From positions 1 through 34,830 of the forward strand of contig JAAELK010000075.1 in assembly GCA_024226935.1 (NCBI GenBank): a stretch of 34,830 bases of DNA, in the 5' to 3' direction. The notes beneath the pieces were generated by a model. It worked only from the letters and a program-made list of their open reading frames with translations, did no database searches and had not been told where the DNA came from. The stretch comes from Desulfobacteraceae bacterium (lineage in GTDB: Bacteria; Desulfobacterota; Desulfobacteria; Desulfobacterales; Desulfobacteraceae). Shown in pieces: positions 20,197 through 22,509 of this stretch. Position 1 is the first letter of the stretch. Each line of letters starts with the position of its first letter. The position numbers and the translations under genes were made by a program.

Positions 20197-20288
20197 CTTA
20201 ACTTAAATGGGAAATTAGATCCTTAGACTTATTCTGTTCCCACCGGCAGGATAGTGTTAATATATTTGTTTTTTTGGAGATAGCGTTA

Positions 20289-21134
20289 ATGCTTGATAAA
20301 AATATTAAACCTTCAGTTGATTCCCATAATCCTGTCTTTGCCCTGGGTAGACAGCTTACAATTGAATATTATGACTGCGGTCAGGGGGTTCTGCTTAGCC
20401 GTGATGCCGTGGAAAAAGCTTTGCTTAAGGGAGCCACTGACAGTGGTGCCACCATTATCAGTTCCTCTTTCCATAAGTTTGAACCCCAGGGCGTGAGCGG
20501 AGTTGTGATTATTGCAGAATCCCATTTTACCGTGCATGCGTGGCCGGAACATGATTATGCCGCCGTTGATATATTTACTTGCGGAGATAATATTAATCTG
20601 GATGCTGCCATCCATTCCATGGAAGAGTCCTTTGGATCTTCCCGGGTGGTGATTTCTTCGGATCAGAACAGGGGAATTATTGGTAATCCTTTTGAATCAC
20701 AATCGGCAGGGAAAAATATTTCCGATACCATAAGAGATAGAAAGACACTGCCCATTTCCTGGAAAAAGGCCTATGATAAAAAAGATCCCTGGGGGGTGTT
20801 AACCTCGGTGGATATTTATGATTGCGCTCCTGATATTATCCGCGATGCCGGGATGATTGAAAATTTTGTGGTAAATCTTTGTGAACACATTGAGATGAAG
20901 CGGTTCGGCGATTGCCAGGTTGTTCATTTTGGAGAGGATGAAAAAGTAGCGGGATTTTCCATGACCCAGCTTATTGAAACTTCCCTTATTTCCGGTCATT
21001 TTGCCAATGCAACCAATACGGCATACTTGGATATTTTCTCTTGTAAGTTTTACGAACCCCGTGAAGTGGCGGAGTTTGCCTTGTCTTTTTTCAAGGGTAA
21101 TCACTATAAAATGCAGGTTGCCCTGAGGCAATAA
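20289..21134 (+). CDS. speD: Tandem S-adenosylmethionine decarboxylase-like proenzyme
   Basis: The 281-residue protein contains two SpeD-fold units. Unit 1 (about 17-130) has the canonical cleavage and catalytic motif AESHFTVHAWPE, with pyruvoyl-forming S78, H83 and C98. Unit 2 (about 165-281) has TSLISGHFANATNTAYLDIFSC with S232, H237 and C252 at exactly the same spacing (5 and 20 residues); Thr replaces the Glu that precedes the Ser in unit 1. Ordinary class 1b bacterial AdoMet decarboxylases are about 120-130 residues, so this is a fusion of two proenzymes, perhaps with differing substrates. It likely supplies decarboxylated AdoMet to the spermidine synthase gene that follows. The start is ATG 20289, with GGAG 9 nt upstream; an upstream TTG (20274) is less likely. 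Confidence 0.88.
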   Translation: MLDKNIKPSVDSHNPVFALGRQLTIEYYDCGQGVLLSRDAVEKALLKGATDSGATIISSSFHKFEPQGVSGVVIIAESHFTVHAWPEHDYAAVDIFTCGDNINLDAAIHSMEESFGSSRVVISSDQNRGIIGNPFESQSAGKNISDTIRDRKTLPISWKKAYDKKDPWGVLTSVDIYDCAPDIIRDAGMIENFVVNLCEHIEMKRFGDCQVVHFGEDEKVAGFSMTQLIETSLISGHFANATNTAYLDIFSCKFYEPREVAEFALSFFKGNHYKMQVALRQ

Positions 21135-21212: not shown

Positions 21213-22079
21213 ATGAAGAATTTAAATACAATTCAAAATGGCTGGTTTTCGGAAATTTGTCCCATGTGGCCGGGGGTTGCCCTCTCCCTTGAAATTATGG
21301 AAACCATTTATAGTAAGAAAAGTAAATTTCAGCAAATCGATCTGTACCAGACACGGCATCATGGTAAGATGCTGGTGCTTGACGGTATTATTCAGCTTAC
21401 AGAATTTGATGAATTTACCTACCAGGAAATGATGACCCATCTGCCTTTGTTTTCCCATCCTGATCCCAAAAGTGTTCTGGTGATAGGAGGAGGAGATGGT
21501 GGTGTTTTAAGGGAAATCGGTCGCCATGATGTGGTGGAAAAGATCGATTTTTGTGAAATTGATGAAGCAGTTATCGCCGTATCAAAGAAGTTTTTGCCCG
21601 AACTTGGCTGTGGATTTGATGATTCCAGGGTAAATGTGCATATCGGTGATGGCAATGCCTTTATCCAAAAGAAAATTAATGCCTATGATGTTATTATCGT
21701 GGATTCTTCGGATCCCATAGGTCCTGGAGAGGTGTTGTTTAAAAAAGCTTTTTATGAGGGCTTGAAAAATGCACTTAAACCCGGCGGTATTATTGCCACC
21801 CAGGGGGAATCTATTTTTATGCACCAGGAATGGGTGGGTACCCTGGCTGGAATTACCAGAGAATTATTCCTGGTCCAGGCCTATGCCAATATTTATGTGC
21901 CCACCTACCCGGGGGGAAATATCGGGATTTGTATGGGGTCTTTGGGACCAAAACTTGTAACTCCGGCTCGTCAGATTTGCCAATCCATTCAGGATCAGCT
22001 CAAATATTATACCCCGCAAATGCACAAAGCCGCTTTTGTGCTGCCCTATTTTGCTGAAAAATTGCTGAAAGAGTCGTGA
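21213..22079 (+). CDS. speE: Spermidine synthase (polyamine aminopropyltransferase)
   Basis: The 288-residue protein transfers the aminopropyl group of decarboxylated AdoMet to putrescine or a related diamine. It has the family signatures: the N-terminal Q-x-I-D-L-Y-x-T-x-x-H-G-K-M-L-V-L-D-G pattern (41-59), the Rossmann motif VIGGGDGGVLRE (90-101), D116 region CEID, IGDGNAF (144-150), and the active-site loop VDSSDPIGP (163-171) followed by LFKKAFYEG. Length and all key residues are normal, so it is expected to be active and cytoplasmic. It directly follows the SpeD-like gene, whose product supplies its co-substrate. The ribosome binding site is weak, and the leader contains a long hairpin that may tune its expression. 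Confidence 0.95.
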   Translation: MKNLNTIQNGWFSEICPMWPGVALSLEIMETIYSKKSKFQQIDLYQTRHHGKMLVLDGIIQLTEFDEFTYQEMMTHLPLFSHPDPKSVLVIGGGDGGVLREIGRHDVVEKIDFCEIDEAVIAVSKKFLPELGCGFDDSRVNVHIGDGNAFIQKKINAYDVIIVDSSDPIGPGEVLFKKAFYEGLKNALKPGGIIATQGESIFMHQEWVGTLAGITRELFLVQAYANIYVPTYPGGNIGICMGSLGPKLVTPARQICQSIQDQLKYYTPQMHKAAFVLPYFAEKLLKES

Positions 22080-22086
22080 TTTTCTA

Positions 22087-22509
22087 ATGGATGGCAAGAT
22101 AGAGATAAAATGGATTAAAACAGCTTCTTTAGATGCCCTTGTTTCCCTGTATAAAGATGCGGGATGGTGGGAGGACAGCTATGGGGATGCTCCAGAATTT
22201 TTAAATCGTATCGTGGCGGATTCCGCTCTTTTTGCCGGTGCCTTTTTAAATAAAAAAATGATAGGAATGGGAAGAGCCCTTTCCGATAAGGCAAGCGATG
22301 CTTATATTCAGGATGTGGCTGTTCTTAAAGAATTTCGGGGCAGGGGCATTGGAGAAAAAATTGTTCAAAAATTGGTTGCCGGGTTAAAGGCGTGGGGTGT
22401 GGACTGGATAGGTCTGATTGCCCAACCCGGAACCACAGGTTTTTATGAAAAACTGGGGTTCCAGCAGCTTGAAGGACATGTCCCGTTAAAATTAAAGGAT
22501 TCAAAATAA
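22087..22509 (+). CDS. GNAT-family N-acetyltransferase
   Basis: A 140-residue acetyltransferase with the acetyl-CoA pyrophosphate loop FRGRGIG (83-89) after the strand IQDVAVL. The C-terminal part GTTGFYEKLGFQ (144-type FYEKLGF motif) supplies the tyrosine commonly used as general acid. The substrate is not evident. It begins 7 nt after the spermidine synthase stop and overlaps the next gene by one base, so it is cotranscribed with polyamine genes; acetylation of a polyamine or a diamine is a reasonable but unproven possibility. Composition is normal for its neighbours. Confidence 0.85.
   Translation: MDGKIEIKWIKTASLDALVSLYKDAGWWEDSYGDAPEFLNRIVADSALFAGAFLNKKMIGMGRALSDKASDAYIQDVAVLKEFRGRGIGEKIVQKLVAGLKAWGVDWIGLIAQPGTTGFYEKLGFQQLEGHVPLKLKDSK

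Follow-up and report, generated by a model that had tools for sequence, protein, structure and literature searches.

Described SpeD-SpeDC fusions and their relatives

SpeD-SpeDC fusions located upstream of speE have been described by Li, Liang, Phillips and Michael (J Biol Chem 2023; PMC10407285), whose test of them, according to the paper, was prompted by the observation of a genome holding no other polyamine biosynthetic genes. The Desulfotignum phosphitoxidans protein SpeD1SpeD2 (WP_006968726 / EMS77273) is a 278-aa chain that is cut into three subunits, and its S79A and S229A mutants show the N-half to be an AdoMet decarboxylase (AdoMetDC) and the C-half to be a pyruvoyl ornithine decarboxylase (ODC), the wild-type protein having an ODC kcat/Km of 3600 per M per s (PMC10407285). 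Neither of the two fusions assayed there with amino acids, that of D. phosphitoxidans included, had arginine or lysine activity (PMC10407285). The same source gives Gln, Thr, Phe and Tyr as diagnostic of the ODC type and a conserved Pro as the mark of AdoMetDC, describes degraded C-halves in the fusions of Desulfobacter latus and Victivallis vadensis, states that the arginine decarboxylase type, SpeDA, arose from SpeD at least three times, and assigns a single cleavage site to class 2 AdoMetDC (PMC10407285).

The protein considered here is encoded in a 34,830-nucleotide stretch of DNA from a Desulfobacteraceae bacterium (the window; contig JAAELK010000075.1 of assembly GCA_024226935.1) and is an unstudied orthologue of the enzyme described and tested in 2023, ordinary for its family and nothing new in kind. 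With D. phosphitoxidans SpeD1SpeD2 it shares the two-domain fusion upstream of speE, the bacterial family and the triads, S79 and S229 corresponding to S78 and S232 of the window protein; it differs in length (281 against 278 aa) and in that the window genome also has an AdiA-like decarboxylase. The window protein is 71-73% identical to the Desulfotignum fusions (27-29% diverged; 73% for locus L200), the 278-aa fusions with S79 and S229 being found in family group g9, which is read as Desulfotignum; none of the fetched loci was recognised as that of D. phosphitoxidans itself. The D. latus and V. vadensis fusions have the same architecture, but their C-half has lost active-site residues, which the window C-half has not. 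Eukaryotic class 2 AdoMetDC (e.g. 1jl0) likewise consists of two linked AdoMetDC-like domains, yet has one cleavage site, whereas both are kept in the window protein.

As judged from its sequence, the window protein is very probably a SpeD-SpeDC fusion proenzyme, with an AdoMetDC N-half, an ODC C-half and two predicted cleavages. Both activities and both cleavage sites are published for the orthologue, and by analogy the window copy would be expected to behave in the same way. The proposal of the earlier note on this DNA that a single polypeptide supplies both polyamine precursors is borne out by experiment on the orthologous D. phosphitoxidans fusion and was already in print (PMC10407285).

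The fusion gene and its N-half

The fusion ORF (20289..21134, + strand) encodes 281 aa plus a stop, in agreement with the translation of the frame, and this one frame contains two PF02675 stretches over the cut-off, which score 195.9 bits over both. In a separate search, the Pfam AdoMet_dc model exceeds its 25-bit cut-off in both halves, at 119 and 81.4 bits. The likely translation start is the ATG at 20289, which is preferred because of the spacing of a GGAG at 20276..20279 (+), 9 nt before it and a likely ribosome-binding site judged only by its position; the alternative TTG at 20274 was set aside, since the GGAG suits the ATG.

Each half has a Ser/His/Cys triad, S78/H83/C98 in the N-half and S232/H237/C252 in the C-half, with the spacing +5 and +20 in both, and the residue preceding the catalytic Ser is Glu77 in the former versus Thr231 in the latter. 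The double pattern is not due to chance, because AdoMet_dc matches both halves above its cut-off. The translation, the Pfam matches and the residues confirm what had been noticed before, namely two AdoMetDC-type domains with identical triad spacing and a Thr before the second Ser. In the structure model of the whole protein (mean pLDDT 82.7, pTM 0.61) the halves have the same order of strands and helices and are separated by residues 135-155, which are of low confidence, and the packing and orientation of the halves in the model are unsure.

The N-half is assigned to the class 1b AdoMetDC domain over residues 17-132 (20337..20684, +) from the alignment of the model to Thermotoga maritima AdoMetDC (class 1b; 1tlu) and from TIGR03330, which scores 145.2 bits against a cut-off of 75.65 on the whole protein, with its best stretch at residues 19-123. 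The T. maritima enzyme has the fold and the catalytic residues of this half (Z 20.1, rmsd 1.6 over 116 residues, 42% identity), and differs in being a single domain with one pyruvoyl. Ser78 (codon 20520..20522, +), at which the AdoMetDC half is predicted to cut itself and to form its pyruvoyl, is equivalent to S63 of T. maritima and S79 of D. phosphitoxidans. The motif formed by E77, S78, H83, P86 and C98 is present, and none of the 69 N-type domains that were fetched from family genomes departs from its E/S/H/P/C residues; P86 is taken here as the AdoMetDC-specific Pro of PMC10407285, the choice of which Pro is meant being ours.

The C-half and its substrate

The SpeDC (pyruvoyl ornithine decarboxylase) domain is placed at residues 159-281 (20763..21131, +) on the basis of the PF02675 match at 20808-21128 (81.4 bits) and of its grouping in the tree; structure searches with the model matched mostly the N-half. 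S232 is kept, with His at +5 and Cys at +20, and the C-half has in this way the self-cleavage residues, unlike the degraded C-halves. This Ser, predicted to be the second self-cleavage site, is equivalent to D. phosphitoxidans S229 by the numbering in the 278-aa orthologues and is encoded together with Thr231 at 20979..20984 (+). Thr231 is read as the second of the diagnostic residues and Gln227 (codon 20967..20969, +) as the first, and with Phe238 and Tyr246 they fit the published Gln/Thr/Phe/Tyr pattern of the ODC type, where the mapping onto the figure of the paper and the placement of the residues are ours, following the order in its text.

In a tree of 44 chosen domains, the N-type and C-type domains split at a support of 100/99, and the window C-half sides at 100/99 with the free-standing SpeDC-like genes and not with the N-halves. 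Support is weak for many branches of this tree, and long branches lead to three single-domain N-type rows and to L003, a third SpeD-like gene of the window genome. Nine C-halves from Lentisphaerota/Kiritimatiellota and seven from Desulfobacteraceae fall together (94/92), as would be expected if a single fusion event had preceded a transfer between phyla.

A protein with two AdoMetDC halves would share the catalytic triad and its spacing between them, as is seen here; such a reading is nonetheless barely credible, as the C-half has neither the Glu before the Ser nor the AdoMetDC Pro (Asn240 stands against P86 of the N-half) and falls with the SpeDC-like genes in the tree. The name "double AdoMet decarboxylase" that the earlier note had given to the protein is wrong for the second half, which, from its residues, almost certainly acts on ornithine.

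In the mechanism proposed for the fusion, the chain would fold as two class 1b AdoMetDC-type domains, each of which would cut itself before its internal Ser (S78, S232), with conversion of the Ser to a pyruvoyl and formation of three subunits. The N-half would decarboxylate AdoMet and the C-half would convert L-ornithine to putrescine, following which the adjoining SpeE would join both products into spermidine; the arginase of the genome could supply the ornithine.

Neighbouring genes

The fusion gene lies immediately upstream of speE, encoding a spermidine synthase of 288 aa (21213..22079, +; TIGR00417, 324.8 bits against a cut-off of 249.55), and the next gene in the run encodes a GNAT acetyltransferase of 140 aa (22087..22509, +; PF00583, 51.9 bits), after which comes a protein with an LPG_synthase_C domain. 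Across the family, speE is found directly downstream on the same strand in 64 of the 69 fetched N-type loci, and in 63 of the 64 loci that have both halves; the filter gave 59, and five more had been flagged only for stop-to-stop frame overlaps of 58 or 67 bases. Of the five N-type loci without speE in the fetched flank, that of G082 is a two-domain fusion, that of G061 has lost its C-half, that of G016 is cut by the end of its contig, and those of G057 and G001 are single-domain.

In G061 (L051), a 307-aa frame on the - strand has the SpeD half fused in frame to a GNAT domain, which replaces the SpeDC half and is by eye close to the window GNAT at 22087-22509. G053 has, in addition to its fusion, a second, single-domain SpeD with its own adjoining speE (G053:C41, L074).

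Other putrescine routes in the window genome

The window genome is 95.23% complete with 3.84% contamination, in 590 contigs. Neither a PLP ODC of the alanine-racemase fold nor SpeA was found in it, PF02784 finding only a lysA-type gene that passes the lysA cut-off, and pyruvoyl arginine decarboxylase has no match in this or any of the 86 family genomes. There is, however, one full-length OKR-type PLP decarboxylase, AdiA-like and located beside an amino-acid permease (G000:C545, L114:1683-5340), whose best matches among solved structures are biodegradative arginine decarboxylases and which reaches the cut-off of none of the NCBIfam models listed. The check proposed along with the initial observation, whether the genome does without separate ornithine or arginine decarboxylases, thus comes out only in part: PLP ODC, SpeA and the pyruvoyl arginine decarboxylase were not found, but this AdiA-like arginine decarboxylase is present.

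The AdiA-like gene is the only full-length OKR_DC match among the 86 family genomes and was possibly acquired. Contig C545 was not dismissed as contamination, its GC (0.396) being close to that of the window (0.392), though GC alone is no proof of belonging.

An arginine-specific C-half of the SpeDA type, feeding an agmatine route, would accord with the repeated origin of SpeDA from SpeD (PMC10407285) and with the AguA-like and AguB-like proteins present in the genome. It is extremely unlikely: both fusions assayed in print were without arginine activity (PMC10407285), the C-half has the ODC pattern of Gln/Thr/Phe/Tyr, the single arginase-family match scores as an arginase (rocF, 300 bits against a cut-off of 227.6) and not as an agmatinase (103.5, below the cut-off of 174.3), and both the AguA-like (272 against 381.8 bits) and the AguB-like protein (237 against 410) fall below their cut-offs. 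Between the two substrates that had been put forward for the second half, ornithine is supported and arginine is not, given the ODC-type residues and the lack of arginine or lysine activity in the two assayed fusions. Conversion of ornithine to putrescine by the C-half would be the plainest route in this genome, with an arginine-agmatine route possible.

The third SpeD-like gene of the genome (G000:C179:14655-15089, that is L003:1417-1851) encodes 144 aa with Thr-Ser, His at +5, Cys at +20, and Gln and Tyr as in SpeDC, with Thr instead of Phe. Its matches elsewhere in the 86 family genomes reach at most 39% identity, and in the tree it sits on a very long branch and is of unsure placement. An origin from a phage was considered for L003, but the phage collection, searched at E 1e-5, holds nothing that matches it.

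State of the C-half across the family

In a scan of named genomes, the relatives of the window protein (best 80 of 98) belong mainly to Desulfobacteraceae and to Lentisphaerota/Kiritimatiellota, and among these best 80 of 98 the identity over the best segment is 51-87% for the former and 35-61% for the latter. An AdoMetDC-family match is present in at least 80 of the 86 family genomes. The survey of these 86 genomes covers a fused C region in 65 loci, G061 being without a recognisable C-half, and scores seven key residues (Q227, T231, S232, H237, F238, Y246 and C252). All seven are intact in 48 of the 65 fused loci, that of the window included, and are not all intact in the other 17, 13 of them lacking part of the Ser/His/Cys triad and four (G024, G027, G028, G030) differing only by Arg for Gln227. 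The D. latus genome (G013), published as degraded, falls among the 17, its fusion (L014) reading R, P, F, H, F, Y, C at the seven sites. On the tree, parsimony gives five to six switches between the intact and the changed state, four of them on well-supported branches.

The survey bears on whether the C-half of the window could be a non-catalytic partner domain, as in D. latus, V. vadensis and eukaryotic class 2 AdoMetDC, with only the N-half at work. Such a state would accord with the changes at one or more key residues in 17 of 65 fused loci, 13 with triad loss, and with the C252S of G081 within the genus of the window itself; several Lentisphaerota C-halves also look decayed in the alignment. 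For the window protein it is highly unlikely, as its seven residues are intact, along with those of three of the four other fusions of its genus, and as PLP ODC and SpeA were not found in its genome.

Among the matches listed, a PLP ODC or SpeA is found in 12 of the 17 genomes with a changed C-half against 4 of the 48 with an intact one (Fisher p 1.9e-6, uncorrected for shared descent), and G081 is one of the genomes that have a PLP ODC. With triad loss alone as the measure, the figures are 9 of 13 against 7 of 52 (p 1.6e-4, with the cells counted by hand and shared descent ignored). It has to be noted that the well-supported branches provide only 3 independent pairs, in which the traits agree in 2.6 of 3 on average and for which a sign test cannot reach 0.05, six pairs being the least with which it could. 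Counting free-standing SpeDC genes as backups as well changes the tally to 15 of 17 against 22 of 48 (p 0.0036), one of the 22 (G060) having a broken copy only, and the paired tree test on this count shows no association. Free-standing SpeDC genes were not retained as backups for changed C-halves, and the count was repeated with PLP ODC and SpeA only, because these genes adjoin other genes without an assigned product; the tree-corrected tests are not significant either way. For two genomes with a changed C-half, G015 (56% complete) and G018 (in about 1180 contigs), no alternative putrescine route was found.

The PLP enzymes counted here include, among the matches listed, a 387-aa decarboxylase with 12 genes in 11 genomes. 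For one of these, a comparison with solved structures places lysine/ornithine and ornithine decarboxylases among the nearest matches, and the five that were scanned are all well below the lysA cut-off. PF02784 frames of SpeA length (638-653 aa) occur in at least 15 genomes; the single frame that was checked is accepted by both ADC models. Taken tentatively, and with somewhat less than an even chance of being right, the ODC half may have been inactivated several times independently within one family, in step with a conventional PLP decarboxylase for ornithine or arginine, the motif of the AdoMetDC half staying unchanged throughout.

Free-standing SpeDC genes

The free-standing SpeDC-like genes of the family have a neighbourhood of their own. 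The matches listed include 39 of them, in 37 genomes, and in every case a gene for a homologue of a 323-aa GNAT/FemAB-like protein comes after it on the same strand; an ATP-grasp ligase is next in 34 of the 39 within the fetched flank. The full run of four genes is seen in five longer loci (L291:5474-9421, L290, L292, L293 and L296; four are re-fetches of loci among the 39), the last gene encoding a PLP decarboxylase of the LysA/FslC kind. Six further loci have the 323-aa homologue in four cases, L297 being without these neighbours and L299 (G060:C33) being a broken copy of the operon in which the SpeDC-like and the 323-aa-type frames are fragmented. The four-gene run has the look of an operon that would make a putrescine-based small molecule. 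The main text of PMC10407285 makes no mention of ATP-grasp, operon or ligase, and a literature search on the operon found nothing; it is apparently undescribed.

Implications for the family

The window protein would provide another genus for the published finding that one chain supplies both spermidine precursors, using two pyruvoyl cofactors that it makes itself. The present analysis adds a family-wide tally of intact and changed C-halves alongside the other putrescine routes of the same genomes, which offers a natural test of the role of the C-half and of the change from a two-site to a one-site enzyme. If the repeated inactivation proposed above is true, living members of the family would represent successive stages between an enzyme with two pyruvoyls and one with a single pyruvoyl and a dead partner domain, which is the route proposed for eukaryotic AdoMetDC. 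The genus of the window would then show an early stage: in G081 Cys252 is lost and a PLP ODC is present, and the domain is intact in the four remaining fusions, that of the window among them.
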